From: Phycisphaerae bacterium
GTDB taxonomy: Bacteria; Planctomycetota; Phycisphaerae; UBA1845
Reading direction: 5' to 3'
DNA length: 64,000 bases
Assembly (NCBI GenBank): GCA_029260215.1
Contig: JAJDDQ010000008.1
Coordinates: forward strand, 1-64,000
Of the stretch, positions 31,638 through 42,021 are shown in pieces. Position 1 is the stretch's first letter; each line of letters begins with the position of its first letter. The notes under the pieces are model-generated. The model saw only the letters and a program-made list of their open reading frames with translations, had not been told where the DNA came from and did not search any database. Both the position numbers and the translations under genes were made by a program.

Positions 31638-33305
31638 ATGGGCGAGCAGGATTCGGGGTATTTGCAACGGTTGGCTGACGAGGACGCTCGCGCGCGTCTG
31701 GACCGTCTGGGCTTGGCGTGGACGTCTGCCGACCAGTCCGCAGCCGCCGCGTTGCGTTTCATCCTCGACACCCGAAGCAAGGCTGCCCCCAACGGCCAAG
31801 CCACCATGCTCGTCGCGCTGGTCGGCGGGGCGTCGTCCGGCAAGAGCACCTTGTTCAACTCGCTAATCAGCCGTGAGGTCAGCCGCGTCAGCGCTCACGC
31901 CCACGAAACGCTGGGGCCTATTGCGGCTGCACACGCCGATCATCTTCCGCAACTCCATCGGTGGATGGACGAGGGATCGCTTCTGGTCGGTTTCGAACCC
32001 TGTCGCCTCGACGATCAACAGGCTCATGTCGGTGCTGTCGGCAAGGTTGCGCTGTGCGAGCATCGGCTGGACGAGCTGAAAAACGTCCTGCTCATCGACC
32101 TGCCCGACGTGACCAGCCAGATGTCCGCCGACGAGGGGGCGGTTGCCCGTAGATTGATGCCCTGGTTCGACGGCCTCATCGTCGTCGTGGACGAGGAGCG
32201 TTGGTTCGACGCAGCCATCTTCGACGAAACACTCACCTTCGCCCGCGACCTCGGGCCTAGTTCCTGGGTCGTGTTCAACCGCACCGAGCACGACGACGCT
32301 TTTTCCGACGAGCAGCGTGAACGGTTGGCTGACCACGCGCGACAACAGCGGGCGGACGCGTTCTGTATCAGCCGTTTTCAGCGTGGCAGCGGGTTTCGCC
32401 CTGTGGCCACCGAAACACGCGAAGAAGTCGTGCGCTGGTTGACGGCCTGCGACGGTAAAGGCCGTTCGGATTCGCTGGGCAAGACGCTCCAGCGACGTTG
32501 TGCGAACCTGCTCGCGGAGAACGTCGCGCGAAGTCAGGCGCTGGACGCGCTCCGCCGAAACATCGGCCAGGAAATCGACACGCTGGCCGACGAAACGCGC
32601 CTGTCCATCGACCTGCTGACCACGGATGAACGTCGCCTTCTCGGCGTGGGGCATCGCTTTATTCCCCTGTACGATGTAGCCCGAAACGTGTTCGATCGTG
32701 TCAGCCGATTTGGCAGGCCCAGACGTGCGACCGTAGGTCAACCTGAAGGCGTGGATTTTGACAAGGACATGGACGATCTCGCGGGCGTGCTGACCCGCAA
32801 TCTGGAGAGTCGCTTTGAACGTTCGACCCACGCGGTCGATCGCGTCATAGCCGACGCGGGATACCTCGCATGCGACAGCCAATGGTGCGCCCGGTGGGAT
32901 TCCCCCGAATTCGACGCGCGCGACTGGGCCGTTCGCATTCGCGGTCACATCGATGCTTGGAAAGAGGAATCCGCGAAAACCTCCCGGCGCGGGAATGTCG
33001 GCGCGCTGGCCATCGGGACGCCGCTGCTGCTTGCTGATCTTCTGTTCCTGGGCGGTGCGGGCATGACGCTTACTTGGCTGACCGCTTCCGTCGCGGGTTT
33101 TCTCGGTGGAAAAAGTTTGGTCAACCTGTTCGACCGCTCGCAGGCGTTCGCTGAGTATCGAACGACGGTGGCTGCCTATCAGCAACTGGTCCGCGAATCG
33201 CTGCGCGACCAATGCGAACGCAACCTGGCTGATATGCCCGCGCGACACTTAGCCATGAACGACCCTATCATGGAGGCTGTGCTGGCCTGCTCGAAGCCGC
33301 GCTGA
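31638..33305 (+). CDS. Dynamin-like GTPase, first of a tandem pair
   Basis: A 555-aa GTPase with a C-terminal membrane hairpin. The N-terminal G domain carries G1 GGASSGKST (about residues 63-71), G3 DLPDVTS near 155, and G4-like FNRTEHDD near 210. The middle part is predominantly helical and charged. Two hydrophobic stretches near residues 455-500 (GALAIGTPLLLADLLFLGG and then TLTWLTASVAGFLGG) look like a membrane-dipping hairpin, the layout of bacterial dynamin-like proteins. GGGACAGG lies before this ATG; an upstream ATG (31572) adds 22 residues of low-conservation Arg-rich sequence. Its stop is 8 bases before the second GTPase, so the two are co-expressed. A role in membrane remodelling is inferred. 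Confidence 0.78.
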   Translation: MGEQDSGYLQRLADEDARARLDRLGLAWTSADQSAAAALRFILDTRSKAAPNGQATMLVALVGGASSGKSTLFNSLISREVSRVSAHAHETLGPIAAAHADHLPQLHRWMDEGSLLVGFEPCRLDDQQAHVGAVGKVALCEHRLDELKNVLLIDLPDVTSQMSADEGAVARRLMPWFDGLIVVVDEERWFDAAIFDETLTFARDLGPSSWVVFNRTEHDDAFSDEQRERLADHARQQRADAFCISRFQRGSGFRPVATETREEVVRWLTACDGKGRSDSLGKTLQRRCANLLAENVARSQALDALRRNIGQEIDTLADETRLSIDLLTTDERRLLGVGHRFIPLYDVARNVFDRVSRFGRPRRATVGQPEGVDFDKDMDDLAGVLTRNLESRFERSTHAVDRVIADAGYLACDSQWCARWDSPEFDARDWAVRIRGHIDAWKEESAKTSRRGNVGALAIGTPLLLADLLFLGGAGMTLTWLTASVAGFLGGKSLVNLFDRSQAFAEYRTTVAAYQQLVRESLRDQCERNLADMPARHLAMNDPIMEAVLACSKPR

Positions 33306-33313
33306 AGTTGACG

Positions 33314-35167
33314 ATGCAGGATACACCGGAACTCATCGAAGAACGGCTTTCGCGAATCAATCGCCGGCTGTCCGACATGCTGGACGTGCCGTCGCTGCCG
33401 CTCACCGGCGGCGGTGCCCGGGCGCTCGACGATCCGCTGTGGGTATGGGGCGTGGTAGGGGGCAAGGACGTCGGCAAGAGCACGCTCATCAACGCGCTCG
33501 CCGGCGGCGAGGTTGTTCAAAAGGGGCTTGAAGTCGGCGAAGGCACCTTCAAACCCTCAGCCTATCTGCACGCCGATGACGAAAACGCCCTCCGTGCCCG
33601 CTTCGTTTCGTTGAATGGATTGTCCGTTGGGTACCACGCCGTCGCACCGCCCGTGATGCACAGCCTGGCGCTCATCGATCTGCCTGATTTCGACTCCCTG
33701 TTTGCTAATCACGCCGAACAGGTTCGCGCGGTGGCGGGCGTTCTCGATGGAATTATCTGGCTGACCACGCCGAAGAAGATGAGCGACTTGCGCGGAATAT
33801 GTGAAATCCGTCGCGTGCTCAAGGATCGTGCCAATTTCATCTACGTGGTCAACAAGATGGACTGGCTCCTCGCTCAGTCCGCCGCACCTTCCGAAGACGA
33901 ATTGAACCGTGTCGCAGCCGCCCTGAACAACCAGATAGCTCTGAGCGGAGCGGATGCGAACGATGCTCGCTGCTTCCTGATCAGCGCCAAACACCGCACC
34001 AAAGCCGCGATTCTCGCCTCGATCGCGAGCGGGCAGGACCGGATTCCTCCCCTTCTTGCGAAGGAGGGGTCGGGGGAGGTCTTGGCCCAAACAGCCACGC
34101 GCAGTGAAACAGACGCGATCTCCACCGCCGCCAGCCGGCTCGTCGATCAGTTCGACGATCTGCGCGTCGCACTCACCACGGCCCCGACACCGGAAAAATC
34201 GTTGGCCAACAAACGTGCCAACTTTGCCTTTCAGGTGGGAACGCAAGCCAAAGCGCTCCTCAGTCATTATCAGCCGCGTGCGTTGGTCGATCGGTTGAAC
34301 GAAGCAGTCTCAACGGACGCGATCGAGGAGTGCGTCGGGCGTGCCTTTCCGGAAGCGTACTGCCGCCAACTCCTGACCCGGCTTAACGAGCGGCGCGTGC
34401 TTGTGGCTGAGTGGTCCGCCTCGCTGTTCAAAAAACGCATCGCCTGTTGGCCGATGCTCGGCGTGCTGGCTTGGCCTTTTGTGATGATCGGCATGGCGAT
34501 TGCGAGCCTGCGTTCCATCCTGCCCCGCGAAGACGCTGACGATCGCGACGGGGCGTTTCGCTTTGACGGCATTGCTCTTGATGAGCGGGCCGACAGCGCC
34601 CGGTCAGCCGTACTCGCCCGACTCGGTTCAGCAGCCGCCCGTGCCGGTGTCGAACTGCCCGACGCTTCCGCCGTCGCACGCCGATTCCGTACCGAGACGC
34701 TGGCGGTGGCCGACGCGCATCGCGACGCGGTGATCCAGCGATACCTCGATCGTTCCCCGAGTTTTCCGGGTCGCGTGTTGCGAAAGTGGTTTCCGCTCGC
34801 GGTGTTGCTGTGGTTCCCGATCGTGCAACCGATTGCGGATTGGACGTTGGCCGGCGCCGCCGGTGCGATCGGATTCAACGCTGAGTCAGCCCGGGTGCTC
34901 GTCGGTATTCTGTCCGCACAGAACATGCTGACCGGTCTCGGCGTGTCCGTGTTGATCCTCGGCTGCGTGACCGGTGCGGTGTACTCGTCAGCCGTCCGGG
35001 ACAGTTTCGCCGCCGTCGACGCCCTGCGTACCATGCCCGCGGAACTGTCCGCCCAACCGCTCGTTCAGACCGTGGCCGACAGCATAGCCCAACCCGTACG
35101 CCGCGTGGCCGACGAACTCGCCACCCTGACTGCACCGCTCGAAGAGTTGGCTGGGAAAACAGTTTGA
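33314..35167 (+). CDS. Dynamin-like GTPase, second of a tandem pair, with repeat-encoded insert
   Basis: A 617-aa GTPase. G1 is GVVGGKDVGKST (about residues 43-54), the G3 motif DLPDFDS near 117 and G4 is NKMDW near 180. Three hydrophobic segments follow (about 375-397, 480-505 and 535-560), with long helical parts between, so it is probably membrane-bound. A stretch of 12 residues (PPLLAKEGSGEV, about 245-256) is encoded by an in-frame dispersed repeat (34046-34080) between the G domain and the first helical part. A TTG at 33308 is an alternative start. It pairs with the upstream GTPase; heteromeric membrane remodelling, as in tandem bacterial dynamins, is inferred. Confidence 0.77.
   Translation: MQDTPELIEERLSRINRRLSDMLDVPSLPLTGGGARALDDPLWVWGVVGGKDVGKSTLINALAGGEVVQKGLEVGEGTFKPSAYLHADDENALRARFVSLNGLSVGYHAVAPPVMHSLALIDLPDFDSLFANHAEQVRAVAGVLDGIIWLTTPKKMSDLRGICEIRRVLKDRANFIYVVNKMDWLLAQSAAPSEDELNRVAAALNNQIALSGADANDARCFLISAKHRTKAAILASIASGQDRIPPLLAKEGSGEVLAQTATRSETDAISTAASRLVDQFDDLRVALTTAPTPEKSLANKRANFAFQVGTQAKALLSHYQPRALVDRLNEAVSTDAIEECVGRAFPEAYCRQLLTRLNERRVLVAEWSASLFKKRIACWPMLGVLAWPFVMIGMAIASLRSILPREDADDRDGAFRFDGIALDERADSARSAVLARLGSAAARAGVELPDASAVARRFRTETLAVADAHRDAVIQRYLDRSPSFPGRVLRKWFPLAVLLWFPIVQPIADWTLAGAAGAIGFNAESARVLVGILSAQNMLTGLGVSVLILGCVTGAVYSSAVRDSFAAVDALRTMPAELSAQPLVQTVADSIAQPVRRVADELATLTAPLEELAGKTV
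34046..34080. repeat. Dispersed repeat H in frame inside a GTPase gene
   Basis: CCTCCCCTTCTTGCGAAGG followed by AGGGGTCGGGGGAGGT; the arms CCTCCCC and GGGGAGG-like pair, and CTTCTTGCGAAG forms an inner loop. A related sequence is inside the small element at 51159-51262. This motif is known from many bacterial genomes as an intergenic repeat; here it is translated as PPLLAKEGSGEV without breaking the frame. Confidence 0.8.
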
Positions 35168-35308: not shown

Positions 35309-35461
35309 ATGTTCCGAAGAATCCTGGCTTTCGCCTGTCTTACGCTCTCATTCGCCGTCACCGCCGGTTGCGGCGACGACATCCGAACCACACGGACCAT
35401 CACCACGCACGAAGAAGAGCCGCCACGCATGGTCTCGCCCGGTACGGAAATCGTCGAATAG
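35309..35461 (+). CDS. Small lipoprotein
   Basis: A 50-aa product. A lipoprotein signal (MFRRILAFACLTLSFAVTAGC) ends in the lipobox VTAGC at residue 21, leaving a mature chain of about 30 residues rich in Thr, Glu and Pro. GAAGGAG lies 6 bases before the ATG. The gene follows the second GTPase by 141 bases and precedes repeat B. It belongs to no known family; such tiny lipoproteins are common next to membrane-remodelling genes, but a link is conjecture. The start and signal are convincing; the short length keeps confidence moderate. Confidence 0.6.
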   Translation: MFRRILAFACLTLSFAVTAGCGDDIRTTRTITTHEEEPPRMVSPGTEIVE

Positions 35462-35571: not shown

Positions 35572-36453
35572 CTACGCGGATCTCGTCGATTCCACTTGCT
35601 GCCCGATTGAAATCCACTCGCGCACGCTAACCTCCTCAGCCCGTCGCGAAAAATCATACAGCGATTCCAACTCCGCACAGCGCTCCTTACCCAGCGCATG
35701 AGCTATGTTGTGACGCAATATCTTTCGCCGATGCGCGAAGCCCTTATGCACCAGTTGCGAGAATCGGTTGAGCGCTTCCACGCTATCGAACGGATTGGGC
35801 TTCAGGTCGACCTGCATCATCGTGGATTCCACTTCCGGTCGAGGCCAAAAGATGGTGGGCGGCAGATGGCCCAACCGGCGAGGCTTGCAGGCAGCCTGAA
35901 TGACAATGCTTACCGGCCCGTACTCCTTCGTGCGTTCCGATGCGACGATGCGATCCCCGACTTCCTTCTGCACCGTGAATCGGAATCCGTCGATTTGACA
36001 CGGGCCTAGAATCAACTCCATCAACAGCGGCGTGGCGATGTCGTAGGGAAGGTTGGCCACCATCATCAATCGGCCGCTGCACTCGGCACGCAGGCGATTC
36101 AGCTCCGTGAGCACATTTTCGGCGATGCGATGCTTGTTTGTGAACACGTCGCCGCGGATGAGAGAGAAGTTGTCCGCGCTCTTCAGCCGGCGCGAGACGA
36201 TGTCGCCGAGTTTCGGATCGACCTCCACCGCCAGAACTTTCCCAACGAGTCGCACAAGGTGTTCCGTCACCGCGCCCGTCCCCGGGCCGACTTCGAACAC
36301 AGCGTCGTCTTTAGTCAGCTCAGCCGATTCGATCAGCCGGCGGAGATTGTTGCCGTCGATCATGAAATGCTGGCCCCACCGCTTGCGCGGGTGGATGCCC
36401 TCCGCCTCGAGCATTTCTTCAATATCAGTCTTTGTCTGAAACGTTTCGTCCAT
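35572..36453 (-). CDS. rsmA: 16S rRNA (adenine1518-N6/adenine1519-N6)-dimethyltransferase RsmA (KsgA)
   Basis: A 293-aa SAM-dependent methyltransferase that dimethylates two adjacent adenosines near the 3' end of 16S rRNA. The N-terminus has the usual HPRKRWGQHFMID (about 20-32), motif I VFEVGPGTGAVTEHLV near 48, and motif IV MVANLPYDIATPL near 131, where canonical enzymes show NLPYNIS, so NLPY is kept and N is replaced by D in a position that varies. The C-terminal helical domain ends in VSVREWISIGQ. Length is slightly above the usual 270. Upstream is a divergent CII-like gene. The product acts late in 30S assembly. Confidence 0.92.
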   Translation of the reverse strand: MDETFQTKTDIEEMLEAEGIHPRKRWGQHFMIDGNNLRRLIESAELTKDDAVFEVGPGTGAVTEHLVRLVGKVLAVEVDPKLGDIVSRRLKSADNFSLIRGDVFTNKHRIAENVLTELNRLRAECSGRLMMVANLPYDIATPLLMELILGPCQIDGFRFTVQKEVGDRIVASERTKEYGPVSIVIQAACKPRRLGHLPPTIFWPRPEVESTMMQVDLKPNPFDSVEALNRFSQLVHKGFAHRRKILRHNIAHALGKERCAELESLYDFSRRAEEVSVREWISIGQQVESTRSA

Positions 36454-36581: not shown

Positions 36582-37052
36582 ATGCGATCTGACGAAGTGC
36601 TCAAGCAGGCCGCCGACGCTGTTGGCGTCAAAGCTCTCGCCGCCGAATTACGCCTCTCACCAGCACTCGTCTACAAATGGTGCCAGCAATCCGGTGCGGA
36701 CGACCCCGACGCCAGCGGAGCACGCAATCCGCTCGACCGGTTGGCTGACATTTTGCGTATTACAGGCTGCCGGAACGTGGTCGATTGGCTTTGTCACGAA
36801 TCCGGCGGCTTTTTCGTGCCCAACCCCGGCGCCGAAGACGCGCCCCCGCGCGTCGAAATGCTCAACGAGACCCAGAAGCTCGTGCAGGAATTCAGCCAAC
36901 TGCTGACCACCGTCACGCAATCCATTGAGGACGACGGCTTCATCGAAGGGAAAGAAGCCGACCTCATTCGCGATTCATGGGAGCGCCTCAAGTCCTCAAC
37001 CGAACGATTCACCGCCGCCTGCGAGCAGGGCGTTTTCGCCCCTGAAGAATAA
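36582..37052 (+). CDS. Phage CII-like DNA-binding protein (CP76 family)
   Basis: A 156-aa protein. The N-terminal half contains a helix-turn-helix pattern (KALAAELRLSPALVYKWCQ, about residues 17-35) as in phage regulatory CII/CP76 proteins (PF06892), which bind operators in lysogeny control. The later part is helical and acidic. No other phage gene is near, so it is probably domesticated and may regulate a cellular gene. It diverges from rsmA with 128 bases between the starts and is followed by repeat B. Family assignment is by the HTH and length; the target is unknown. Confidence 0.6.
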   Translation: MRSDEVLKQAADAVGVKALAAELRLSPALVYKWCQQSGADDPDASGARNPLDRLADILRITGCRNVVDWLCHESGGFFVPNPGAEDAPPRVEMLNETQKLVQEFSQLLTTVTQSIEDDGFIEGKEADLIRDSWERLKSSTERFTAACEQGVFAPEE

Positions 37053-37166: not shown

Positions 37167-39050
37167 CTAAGACGCCCCGCCGCCATCGACCGACTGTCGA
37201 ATGACGTGCGTACGGTCGACCGCGAGATTCTCAACCGTCTGCTCGCCCCCTCCAGGCCAACTAATCGTGATCGACACGGGCACCGCCGACTCCCCCAATC
37301 CGATCGTCACCGGCAATTCCACCTGCGACAGATAACTCCGCGTGGGCATGACCTGCCGCGCGATGTGATCGCCCTCGACCTCGGTTTCGATCCACGCGCC
37401 GATGGCATCGCGGTTGCACGTTACCCCGATCAGTTTCAAGCGAATCCAGTGGTGACCGGCATCGAAATCGTTGCGGAACAGGATAGGCCGGCGACCGACT
37501 TGCGTGAACAAAACGTCAAGGTCGCCGTCGTTGTCGATGTCGGCATAGGTCGCTCCGCGCCCGACCATCGGCTCGGCGAAGTCAGCCGTCGATGTGGGGT
37601 CAACCGGAACGAAACATCGCCGCCGCCCAGGCCCGCAATTCCAGAAAAGCTGAGCAGGCTGCTCGTAATTCTGACTTGGCTGAACGATGTTGATCTCTTC
37701 TTCGAGATGCCCGTTGGCCTGCAGCAAATCCAGCCGCCGGTCCAAGTCGTAATCAAACAGAAACAGTCCGAACGACAGCATCAGACGACTCGGCGCACCG
37801 ATGCCCTCCACGATGGCTTCGTCCGCAAAGAGCGAGCGCCGCCCCTGCGACACGTACAGCGATGTCATTTCGTTGGCGAAGTTCCCAATCGCAACGCCCA
37901 GATCGCCGTCGTTGCGATGCTGACCCGTGTCGATACCCATCGCACCCGTCGCGTTGCCGTCGCGATCGTAGGCCAAACCCACCACGACCGCGTCTTCACT
38001 GAATGTGCCGTCGCCGTTGTTGTGGAAGTAGAAGTTCGCGACCGTGTCGTTGGAAACCAGCAGGTCCATCCAACCGTCCCGATCAGCGTCCACCGGCGCG
38101 ACGCCCAGCGATTTCGCCATGGCAGCCCCCGTAGCCGGATTCTTCACCTGCACGCCCGCGTCAGCCGACACATCTGTGAACGTCCCGTCGCCGTTGTTGC
38201 GATACAGATAGGGAAACGTGCCCGCGAAATTCATCGGCGGCCCATACGCTCTGCCCACGCCCACCAGCTTATAGTCCACCTCGAAATCAATCTCACGCGA
38301 CCAGCGAATATAATTGCACACGAACAAATCAAGATCGCCGTCATTTTCGTAATCCACAAACGCCGAACTCGTGCTCCATTCCGAATCCCCACCCGCCACG
38401 TTGGCCGACGCGGTAACGTCTTCAAAACGTCCGCCGTTATTGCGAAGCAACCTGTTCGATCCCAAAGCCGCCAAAAACACGTCAACATCGCCGTCGTTAT
38501 CGTAGTCTCCAACCGCCGCCCCAGTCGCGTAAAGCGACATGTCCAGACCCGTCTCCGTGGTCACGTTCTCAAACCGCCCGCTGCCGTCGTTACGATAAAG
38601 CGCCTGCGTCGCCGCCGATGCTTCCTGCGCGTCGCCAAGCCAACGCTGCCCGTTCATCAACAGCAAGTCCTGATCGCCATCGTTGTCGTAGTCGAAGAAG
38701 GCAGCCCCCGAACCCATCGTCTCCGGCATCAGTTTTTCACCGGCAGCGCCGCTCTCGTGAACGAAATCGATACCAGCCGACACCGTGATGTCGGTGAACG
38801 CGACCACGGGTGGAGGCGTGTCATCCTCCACCCTCTTCGGGGCCGCCACAACGGAATCGGTCGCCGGCGGAGCCTCTTCAGGCCGATTGACGCTCCACAC
38901 CACAACACAGACGATCAGCGCAATCCCAGCCATCGCCATAATCGACCGGCTGAAAACCTTACCGATGATTGAGTCGTCTTCGGCAACGAATTCATCCTCC
39001 ACCACCGGCCCATCCTGCGAAGTCGAGTCATCATGCTGTGCTTCGGTCAT
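37167..39050 (-). CDS. FG-GAP/VCBS repeat protein with ASPIC/UnbV domain (CRTAC1-like)
   Basis: A 627-aa membrane-anchored protein. After a short acidic cytoplasmic tail, one TM helix lies at about residues 33-52; the exported region holds about nine FG-GAP/VCBS repeats with calcium loops such as FFDYDNDGDQDLLLMNG, VGDYDNDGDVDVFLAALG and DINDGDLDVLF-type sequences. The C-terminal ASPIC/UnbV domain (about 535-620) ends in the usual WPGGGEQTVENL block. The start overlaps the stop of the multiheme cytochrome gene by 4 bases (ATGA), so the proteins are made together. Such pairs are common in planctomycetes and may be part of a surface redox or adhesion complex; function is not established. Confidence 0.88.
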   Translation of the reverse strand: MTEAQHDDSTSQDGPVVEDEFVAEDDSIIGKVFSRSIMAMAGIALIVCVVVWSVNRPEEAPPATDSVVAAPKRVEDDTPPPVVAFTDITVSAGIDFVHESGAAGEKLMPETMGSGAAFFDYDNDGDQDLLLMNGQRWLGDAQEASAATQALYRNDGSGRFENVTTETGLDMSLYATGAAVGDYDNDGDVDVFLAALGSNRLLRNNGGRFEDVTASANVAGGDSEWSTSSAFVDYENDGDLDLFVCNYIRWSREIDFEVDYKLVGVGRAYGPPMNFAGTFPYLYRNNGDGTFTDVSADAGVQVKNPATGAAMAKSLGVAPVDADRDGWMDLLVSNDTVANFYFHNNGDGTFSEDAVVVGLAYDRDGNATGAMGIDTGQHRNDGDLGVAIGNFANEMTSLYVSQGRRSLFADEAIVEGIGAPSRLMLSFGLFLFDYDLDRRLDLLQANGHLEEEINIVQPSQNYEQPAQLFWNCGPGRRRCFVPVDPTSTADFAEPMVGRGATYADIDNDGDLDVLFTQVGRRPILFRNDFDAGHHWIRLKLIGVTCNRDAIGAWIETEVEGDHIARQVMPTRSYLSQVELPVTIGLGESAVPVSITISWPGGGEQTVENLAVDRTHVIRQSVDGGGAS

Positions 39051-41959
39051 CCGTCCGATCCTTTCGCGATTTCTTCGCGCGCTTCAAGCAATGTCGCATC
39101 TGCCGCCCGTGTGATTTCGCGCTCAGGCAGCCCGTACGCACCCACACGCTGCAAATCGTAGATCACCACCGCCTCCGCCGCGTGATTGGCCGGCGCGGAC
39201 TTGCGGCGCGCTTCCGCAACGGCGACATCGGCTGCGTTGTCATCCGGCTTGTACTTGGCATGCAAGGTGCGATGCGCTTCCGACTTGGCATCATCGCCAA
39301 GCTGAGCGTAAAGAAGCCCCAAGTTGTAATGGGCCTTCATGTTTTCCGGGTCGATCGCCAACGCCCGATCGAACCATTCGATCGCCTCACGCATCAACGC
39401 TACCCGGGCATCCTTGGATGCCTCACCGCGCTCCTGCTTGGCCCGTTCAAAAAGCGTCTGCCCCAACTCATTCAGCACGCGATAGTCTTTGGAGAAATCG
39501 AAACCGCGCGACCGCGTCTCGTCCGAATCCATCTCAACAATGTCGCGAAAATCGGCGATGGCCTCATCCAGAAAACCGTTCTGCTTGTTCACCAGCCCCG
39601 TAAACCATTTCACCGTCCACGCAGGGGCGGGCGTGTCGTGCTCCGCAGCCCGCGTCAGAGCAGACACCGCCTCGTCCAGGCGGCCCTCTTTCAAATAAAC
39701 CCTCGCCAGATTCAAAGGCCCATCAGCCCGACCGAGTTCTTCGACGGCAACGAACGCTTCCTCCGCCTGACGCAATTCACCCTTGTTTGCACCGGTCTCG
39801 CCCTTGCGAAACAGGCCTATACCGTAATCGTTCCACCGCTGCCACGGTATGATCGGAGACGGTTCATTGGCAGCGACCGCAGAACTCTCCGCCACCGGAA
39901 ACACGACCGAATCCGTCGCCAGCGTCATAATGGGCAAATCATTGGTCACAAAATCCTGCCCCTGAAAGTACCGCATGTACAGCGTGTCGAACTTGCGATA
40001 GCGCAACGCCGCGTCGAATGTCACTGCCCCGCGCGCGTCCGGCGGGATCGTGATCTTGCAATGCACCACGTCAGCCGCACCGGGCGGAATCTGATGATTG
40101 TACAGCGACATGAAAATATCTTCCGCGTTGCGGCGATCGATGCGATTCCCGTTGCGATCGATCACGTACATGTTCACAAAGTGCGACCAAGGATCGACCT
40201 CGCCGTCGTCCGCACGCATGCCCCCGCTCCTGCCGATCACCCGATCGCCCACGCGCGCCGTCACGTCAAGCCACACCTCGTTCGAATCGGCCGTCCCCTG
40301 CGTGAACACGTGGCCCATCTTCACCGTGCGAATCACCGTATCGATCAAATACGTCTTGCCCGGCTTCAGCGTCGGCGCCGCGGGCCTGATCGGTGCGATC
40401 AGCTTTCCCTCAATCCCCTCGCCCTCACGCACCGCGAAAACGTCCACACGCATCACGCCTTCATTGAATTTCGCGTGGGCTTCGTTCACATGTGCGGGCA
40501 TGCCCAGCAAGTGCGGAACAGCCGTGTTGGCCGACGGAAACTGGTGATCGTGAACCTTGAGCACCCCGGAATCATCGAAATCCGCAGCCGCAAAGTCAGC
40601 CGATTCATCGAGCGGCATGTGGCAGTTGTTGCAGTTCGGCTCAGCCTTTGGTGGGTAATAGAAGCTCGAAACGCCATGCCCGCTCACCCCGCTCAGCAGA
40701 AACGCATCGTAATGATTCTGCCCGCGCAACCACTTGTACGCGTTCAGCTCCTCCGGCAAATGCACCTTGTGACACGCACCGCAGAACTCCGTCGATTTGT
40801 GCAGCGGCTTGAGAAACGTCTTCTTGTGAAACGCCGGCTTAGCCTTGACCAGTTGCCGATTGATCCAGCCCAAAACCCGGTTCTCACTAAATGCGAACGG
40901 GTAATGCGAAGGCGCTTCGAGCGTGTAGTCCGCATTGCCTTTCGGCGAATTGACATGCGTGATCGCGTGACACACCGTGCAGGTTATACCTGCCTGAGCC
41001 ATCGTATCGGAGCTCAGATCGTATTGCGGGTCGTCGAATCTCGGATCGTCAAACGCCCCGCTGAAAAACGGCACAGGATCGTGACAGCCCGCACAAAAAC
41101 GGGCACCCTGCACGTTCCCGTCACGCTCGAAAATCACTTTTCGCGTGTTAAGCACCGCGAATTCATAGGCAGGATTATTGAACGACGCGAAGCGATGCAT
41201 GCTGTAAGACCACGACGCATGCACATCCTCGTGACATTCCTTGCAGTATTCATCGTTCGCCAGCACCTGCGGCGATATGAAATTGCCGTCTGACGTCCGC
41301 GACAACGACGGGAAGAAATACTGCTCACCCGAAGCAGGCCCCACAACGTTCCAATTCCGAGGATCCTGCGAGTGCAGACCAGCCATCACCGCCGCAAACC
41401 CGCACGCCACCGCAGCCCAGCTCGCTCCGACGCGCCACTTGATCCGCTTGCCCGCCAATCGGTGCAGCACAAAAAGCCAGACGACCACGAACGGCGTGAC
41501 CACGTGCGCCCAATACACCACCGAACGCATCTGCACGCTCTTCAAATCAAGTTTGAATCCGAAAATCTCGACGCGCGTCAGTGCGATACCACTCCCCAGC
41601 AGCAGCAGGCTCACCGCAAACAACGCATACCCCGCACGCACCGCCCGCCGATTAGGCCTGTTCCGCGCATTCACAATATGAATACACCCGAACACGATCA
41701 CCGGCAGAACAACGACCGTCCCCAGCACCAGGTGCGCCAGAAACATCATCTGATAAAAGTAATTCTGGTAAACCTGCCCCGACCACCACTCCAGAAGCGT
41801 CACCGACCCCAGATACACCGCGTTGATGACCAGCACCGCAAACAGCGCAAACACCGCCAGCAGCAGTTTCTTCAACCGAGGACCAACCACCGCAACGTAA
41901 CGCTTGCGACGAGCTTGACCTGGAGAGACTTGATTCTCGGGCGACGTCACCACAGACAT
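39047..41959 (-). CDS. Pentaheme c-type cytochrome with N-terminal membrane domain and C-terminal TPR repeats
   Basis: A 970-aa protein. The N-terminal 190 residues have four to five membrane helices with histidines (for example FLAHLVLGTVVVLPV), resembling a cytochrome b-like anchor. Five CxxCH heme sites follow: CKECH (about 237), CAGCH (289), CTVCH (327), CGACH (393) and CNNCH (444), consistent with a cytochrome c-554/c3-type domain. Residues about 710-900 form TPR-like repeats (DGPLNLARVYLKEGRLDEAV, AHYNLGLLYAQLGDDAK). It presumably passes electrons between the quinone pool and a periplasmic partner. ATG chosen by homology start; it is followed directly by the CRTAC1-like gene. The partner and final acceptor are unknown. 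Confidence 0.85.
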   Translation of the reverse strand: MSVVTSPENQVSPGQARRKRYVAVVGPRLKKLLLAVFALFAVLVINAVYLGSVTLLEWWSGQVYQNYFYQMMFLAHLVLGTVVVLPVIVFGCIHIVNARNRPNRRAVRAGYALFAVSLLLLGSGIALTRVEIFGFKLDLKSVQMRSVVYWAHVVTPFVVVWLFVLHRLAGKRIKWRVGASWAAVACGFAAVMAGLHSQDPRNWNVVGPASGEQYFFPSLSRTSDGNFISPQVLANDEYCKECHEDVHASWSYSMHRFASFNNPAYEFAVLNTRKVIFERDGNVQGARFCAGCHDPVPFFSGAFDDPRFDDPQYDLSSDTMAQAGITCTVCHAITHVNSPKGNADYTLEAPSHYPFAFSENRVLGWINRQLVKAKPAFHKKTFLKPLHKSTEFCGACHKVHLPEELNAYKWLRGQNHYDAFLLSGVSGHGVSSFYYPPKAEPNCNNCHMPLDESADFAAADFDDSGVLKVHDHQFPSANTAVPHLLGMPAHVNEAHAKFNEGVMRVDVFAVREGEGIEGKLIAPIRPAAPTLKPGKTYLIDTVIRTVKMGHVFTQGTADSNEVWLDVTARVGDRVIGRSGGMRADDGEVDPWSHFVNMYVIDRNGNRIDRRNAEDIFMSLYNHQIPPGAADVVHCKITIPPDARGAVTFDAALRYRKFDTLYMRYFQGQDFVTNDLPIMTLATDSVVFPVAESSAVAANEPSPIIPWQRWNDYGIGLFRKGETGANKGELRQAEEAFVAVEELGRADGPLNLARVYLKEGRLDEAVSALTRAAEHDTPAPAWTVKWFTGLVNKQNGFLDEAIADFRDIVEMDSDETRSRGFDFSKDYRVLNELGQTLFERAKQERGEASKDARVALMREAIEWFDRALAIDPENMKAHYNLGLLYAQLGDDAKSEAHRTLHAKYKPDDNAADVAVAEARRKSAPANHAAEAVVIYDLQRVGAYGLPEREITRAADATLLEAREEIAKGSDG

Positions 41960-42021
41960 GGTTGAACACTCCGAACGGGCTGCCAGCCCCAACAGCAATC
42001 GACAAGACAACTCATAAGTCT

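Follow-up and report, generated by a model that had tools for sequence, protein, structure and literature searches.

A co-inherited tandem gene pair of Planctomycetota probably encodes an asymmetric couple of variant bacterial dynamin-like proteins

Two adjacent genes in a contig of a Phycisphaerae bacterium each encode a P-loop G domain together with helical and hydrophobic regions, which raises the question of whether they form a bacterial dynamin pair, whether they are instead ordinary GTPases with membrane-anchored tails, and which cellular task they would serve. Dynamin pairs and heterotypic activation between their members have precedent in bacteria (PMC6104087, PMC4159319). We read the two genes as coding for bacterial dynamin-like proteins (DLPs) that work as an asymmetric and obligate pair, with a probable heterocomplex acting on membranes, and assign this reading a probability of roughly 0.8.

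In the window, that is, the whole stretch of 64,000 nucleotides that was analyzed, gene 1 occupies positions 31638..33305 of the forward strand (ATG at 31638, stop codon at 33303-33305, 555 aa), and gene 2 follows head to tail on the same strand at 33314..35167 (ATG at 33314, stop codon at 35165-35167, 617 aa). The coordinates leave a gap of exactly 8 bases, in agreement with the preliminary description of the locus. Relatives of both genes at 44-54% identity occur in seven metagenome-assembled genomes (MAGs) of Phycisphaerae/Planctomycetota, and two further MAGs carry relatives at about 20% identity; since both open reading frames (ORFs) are conserved in relatives and kept as a pair phylum-wide, neither is a product of chance. 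The G domains of the two proteins are themselves homologous (hhalign, 98.5% probability). Taken together, the ORFs, the alignments, the AlphaFold models and the Foldseek/VIA-align comparisons predict for the gene 1 product a layout that runs from neck helices at the N terminus through the G domain, a long helical trunk and a hydrophobic hairpin to a C-terminal return helix, and for the gene 2 product a dynamin-like layout as well.

To characterize the folds, AlphaFold2 models were built on ten-sequence alignments, one per gene. Helices at the N terminus, a G domain, a trunk of long helices, hydrophobic helices and a return helix at the C terminus are seen in both the gene 1 model (pLDDT 77, pTM 0.73) and the gene 2 model (pLDDT 73, pTM 0.54). 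Confidence in the gene 2 model is modest, above all in its G domain, and this model is used as supporting evidence only. In Foldseek searches of the PDB, the best matches of gene 1 are the bacterial dynamin-like protein BDLP (7.8e-9), Cj-DLP (1.6e-8) and IniA (2.6e-8), and those of gene 2 are BDLP (2.3e-6), SynDLP (5.1e-5) and LeoA (1.1e-4). VIA-align superimposes gene 1 on Fzo1 (Z 18.8, rmsd 5.2, 298 aligned, model residues 1-555) and gene 2 on mitofusin-1 (Z 14.6, rmsd 5.0, 264 aligned, model residues 1-320). Against solved DLPs the TM-scores are low (0.2-0.4), values that flexible, hinged multi-domain proteins can give but that fall short of proof. The models thus predict a G domain with a helical neck and trunk contributed by both termini, strongly for gene 1 and moderately for gene 2, and the earlier proposal of a dynamin-like pair is largely borne out, with bacterial DLPs (BDLP, Cj-DLP, IniA, SynDLP) as the best matches of the two models.

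Sequence profiles leave room for another assignment, in which both proteins would not be dynamins but ordinary GTPases of the TRAFAC class (Era/Der-like) whose helical tail anchors them in the membrane. Era and Der are the best sequence-profile matches in the PDB, MMR_HSR1 and GTP_EFTU are the top Pfam matches, and Era/Der P-loops outscore any DLP with other profiles, although in the PDB search with the gene 2 alignment SynDLP ranks on top (3e-5). Most of this signal comes from the P-loop region, however, and the Era and Der equivalog models of NCBIfam reach only 24 of 237 bits and 17 of 307 bits, respectively, in short matches. No Era- or Der-type second domain was found, and the predicted folds match DLPs over their full length, including the long trunk helices: gene 1 aligns with Fzo1 across residues 1-555 and DLPs top the Foldseek results, so that a stalkless Era/Der fold, named in the preliminary description as an outcome that would speak against a dynamin pair, is not what the models predict. 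The A4 profile, searched against the PDB, also matches SynDLP, Cj-DLP1, mitofusin-2, EHD2 and IRGB10. In Pfam, Dynamin_N is matched by 10/10 members of each close alignment (best values 7.8e-8 and 9.1e-8), and the window proteins themselves score 25.6 and 19.4, below the cut-off of 27. We consider the Era/Der-like assignment very improbable. Among the other Dynamin_N matches in the genome, the one that was translated (L102) is MnmE-like by reading.

The G motifs were counted in 53 homologues of each gene, window proteins included. The P-loops (G1) noted earlier are located at residues 63-71 of gene 1 (GGASSGKST, 31824..31850, forward strand) and residues 49-57 of gene 2 (GGKDVGKST, 33458..33484, forward strand), and their lysine is present in 53/53 and 52/53 homologues, respectively. 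In switch I (G2), gene 1 has threonine in 53/53 proteins, while gene 2 has threonine in 41/53 and serine in 12/53; the P-loop and the switch I threonine of dynamins are accordingly both in place. Switch II (G3) departs from the classical dynamin consensus, which is DxxG (PMC4159319): the motif is DLPD in gene 1 (residues 154-157, 32097..32108, forward strand) and in gene 2 (residues 122-125, 33677..33688, forward strand), and DxPD or close to it across the homologues, with aspartate in place of the glycine in 53/53 proteins of each gene (106/106 overall). A canonical DxxG is likewise absent from all four related proteins of the actinobacterium Nonomuraea gerenzanensis described below. Because aspartate replaces the glycine of the classical consensus, we file the pair as variant rather than canonical dynamins; the substitution could mean weak or no hydrolysis. 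The glycine is not a requirement of the Pfam dynamin family, since three of the four DxPD proteins of Nonomuraea pass the Dynamin_N cut-off. In the G4 motif ([N/T]KxD), gene 2 carries the canonical NKMD (residues 180-183, 33851..33862, forward strand) and keeps the aspartate in 52/53 homologues, and gene 1 carries a degenerate NRTE (residues 214-217, 32277..32288, forward strand) and has the canonical aspartate in 3/53. This one-sided loss suggests, at the level of sequence, an asymmetric pair. Together with the switch II aspartate, it makes the genes a test of catalytic work-sharing in dynamin pairs.

The helical stalk-like regions and hydrophobic hairpins of the preliminary description have counterparts in the long helices of the models and in C-terminal hydrophobic segments of both proteins, located by Kyte-Doolittle hydropathy and helix prediction. 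In gene 1, a hydrophobic hairpin at residues 452-486 (32991..33095, forward strand; model helices 454-469 and 474-486, of low confidence) is the putative membrane-inserting trunk tip. Gene 2 has a C-terminal hydrophobic hairpin at residues 495-562 (34796..34999, forward strand; stretches 495-513 and 528-562), which contains WFPIVQP, and an additional hydrophobic stretch at residues 375-404 (34436..34525, forward strand) that occurs mainly in close relatives. When a segment is defined as a best Kyte-Doolittle 19-residue window of at least 1.6, every gene 2 homologue (50/50) and most gene 1 homologues (40/51) have a C-terminal hydrophobic segment, which bears indirectly on the membrane association named in the preliminary description. 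The median best window is 1.92 for gene 1 and 2.33 for gene 2, compared with means of 1.45 and 1.67, respectively, in shuffled C-terminal halves. Where the gene 2 hairpin starts, the motif WFPxVQP (residues 500-506, window positions 34811-34831) is found exactly in 16/50 homologues and in a loose form in 26/50.

To define how widely the pair occurs, genomes were counted by hand from match tables at E ≤ 1e-40. The wide gene 2 profile is matched in 60/114 genomes of the order and, in a Planctomycetota sample, gene 2 is present in 65/392 genomes, so that the pair recurs in planctomycete genomes, a check that had been proposed beforehand. A distinct gene 1 accompanies the strong gene 2 in all 65 of these genomes, adjacent to it in 49 and not adjacent in 16; one genome was left out of the 65 because its gene 2 match is gene 1 itself. 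The unlinked pairs include genomes of one or two contigs, G137, G218, G396 and G434 among them, in which the genes lie more than 0.3 Mb apart, and full-length proteins were confirmed at the loci checked (L132-L138). In 52 tandem pairs gene 1 precedes gene 2, and the two often overlap by 4 bases. Pairwise distances for gene 1 and gene 2 have a correlation of 0.95; although shared phylogeny confounds this value, it shows joint descent and looks like mostly vertical inheritance. The genes are therefore both side by side and co-inherited, as in a bacterial dynamin pair. Roughly half of the genomes of the order lack the pair, including genomes that are 93-98% complete, and this absence from near-complete relatives marks it as accessory rather than core. 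Long ORFs that resembled natural gene fusions were rejected, their extensions being Arg/Pro-rich wrong-frame translation across gene 1. The converse nearly holds: two genomes, G478 (99% completeness) and the fragmented G247, carry gene 1 but show no clear gene 2, as a possible orphan or with a decayed partner. In a literature search of partial coverage, no description of a dynamin pair from planctomycetes came up.

Outside the phylum, N. gerenzanensis encodes two homologous tandem pairs (168-176 bits for gene 1, 130-132 bits for gene 2). They resemble the window pair and its homologues in tandem order, in near full-length profile matches, in DxPD in both partners, in a G4 aspartate restricted to gene 2, in hydrophobic C-terminal segments in gene 2, and in the 4-base overlap seen in many planctomycete tandem pairs; three of the four proteins exceed the Dynamin_N cut-off, one at 8.4e-12. 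They differ in belonging to another phylum and in being about 16-20% identical to window gene 1 when aligned jointly. In a G-domain tree, each of the two Nonomuraea partners groups with its own counterpart, gene 1 or gene 2 (split support 0.32, three gene 2 sequences misplaced), which suggests that the gene 1/gene 2 duplication may be older than the phyla; the shared architecture likewise suggests an old pair. The internal membranes of planctomycetes, offered earlier as the context of the pair, are not needed to explain it, as an actinobacterium has the pair too. A tblastn search for plasmid relatives found none with window gene 2 and led to Nonomuraea with divergent homologues; the record concerned (NZ_LT559118.1, 11.85 Mb) is labelled a plasmid, is probably a chromosome, and has a gene table of 10 features. 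We suspect that the Nonomuraea pairs belong to the Streptomyces DynA/DynB family, in which DynB has two transmembrane segments and partners DynA, both proteins co-localizing with FtsZ at sporulation septa (PMC8748795).

Among other known systems, mitofusin and Fzo1 share with the window proteins a G domain with a helical bundle formed from both termini (the VIA-align matches at Z 14.6 and 18.8); they differ in being eukaryotic proteins of the mitochondrial outer membrane and in having a canonical DxxG. Nostoc BDLP1, mycobacterial IniA and Synechocystis SynDLP are the top structural matches and share the G domain, neck and trunk, but beyond the G domain their sequences have little in common with the window proteins; the DLPD of the window proteins is DLPG in SynDLP. 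Campylobacter jejuni Cj-DLP1/Cj-DLP2 is likewise a side-by-side DLP pair with a predicted fold match, but the sequence match is weak (A4 profile to 5owv, 8e-4), G3 is DxPD in the window proteins, and no match was seen to the assembly domain described as Campylobacter-specific. GTP hydrolysis by Cj-DLP1/2 requires the heterocomplex, and the pair tethers membranes (PMC6104087).

By analogy with Cj-DLP1/2, the two window proteins would probably form a heterocomplex. Each is predicted to have its G domain at the N terminus, seated on a neck and trunk of helices, and the hydrophobic helices close to the tip of the trunk would probably enter the membrane. The G domains would pair across their nucleotides, triggering GTP hydrolysis, which in turn would drive tethering, bending or fusion of membranes. 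The intact NKxD of gene 2 may mark it as the principal GTPase, and the degenerate G4 of gene 1 may make it a partner of weakened guanine specificity. A bolder version, which we think doubtful, is an asymmetric pair with the switch II aspartate in both members, in which loss of guanine specificity in gene 1 leaves one partner as a pseudo-GTPase or with a different nucleotide as substrate, and in which the pair remodels planctomycete membranes independently of FtsZ. A simple prediction from the pair is that each gene needs the other.

The cellular role can be stated less firmly than the kind of protein. Membrane maintenance or repair appears the likeliest, as a tentative guess. Meanwhile, the pair might be a planctomycete version of actinobacterial DynA/DynB that acts on division-site membranes without FtsZ, which is suggested by the full-length profile matches to the two Nonomuraea tandem pairs, with their shared order, overlap, DxPD and asymmetric G4, and by the published position of DynB/DynA at FtsZ sporulation septa (PMC8748795). 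The host genome (97% complete) has no match to Tubulin/FtsZ (PF00091), which 13/14 control genomes do match; this fits a role without FtsZ, yet the characterized DynA/DynB function depends on FtsZ through Z-ring stabilization, and with no FtsZ found in this genome, the pair cannot have a part in a Z-ring. Moreover, the comparison draws on the Nonomuraea pairs, whose kinship with S. venezuelae DynA/DynB is suspected, division genes are not conserved beside the pair, and the gaps in its distribution within the order argue against core division machinery, so we consider such a role unlikely. Anti-phage defense, a membrane surveillance that delays or prevents lysis in the manner of B. subtilis DynA or PADLOC LeoABC, seems less probable again: B. 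subtilis DynA is reported to confer phage tolerance (PMC8844932), the pair is patchily distributed within the order, and gene 1 weakly touches PADLOC Leo dynamin models (0.006), but these PADLOC matches do not rise above noise and are confined to the P-loop region, the Pfam-matched window neighbours are not defense genes, and the distance correlation fits mostly joint vertical descent. For membrane maintenance or repair, as for any other task of the proposed DLP pair, the significance lies in the host: FtsZ-less planctomycetes have to divide and to keep up complex membranes, and the pair is a two-gene candidate recurring across the phylum. The only characterized candidate relative, DynA/DynB, acts via FtsZ, and planctomycetes would show the pair's action without it.

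Around the pair, no neighbouring genes are conserved beyond a few genomes, and a promoter/terminator scan gave nothing exceeding chance. A tiny lipoprotein had been noted as following the pair; the ORF is real (35309-35461, forward strand, 50 aa, lipobox TAGC), but its homologues in relatives lie on contigs other than that of the pair, some in genomes without the pair, and these unlinked loci rule it out as a third component of the unit. Pfam matches among the genes around the pair in the window identify an MMPL transporter, RsmA, a CII-like regulator, an FG-GAP protein and a cytochrome/TPR protein. The small Phage_CP76/CII-like regulator (PF06892, 9e-7; 36582-37052, forward strand) adjoins rsmA (35572-36453, reverse strand), and the FG-GAP/ASPIC-UnbV protein (37167-39050, reverse strand) overlaps a large protein that matches TPR and cytochrome c554-type families (39047-42010, reverse strand).
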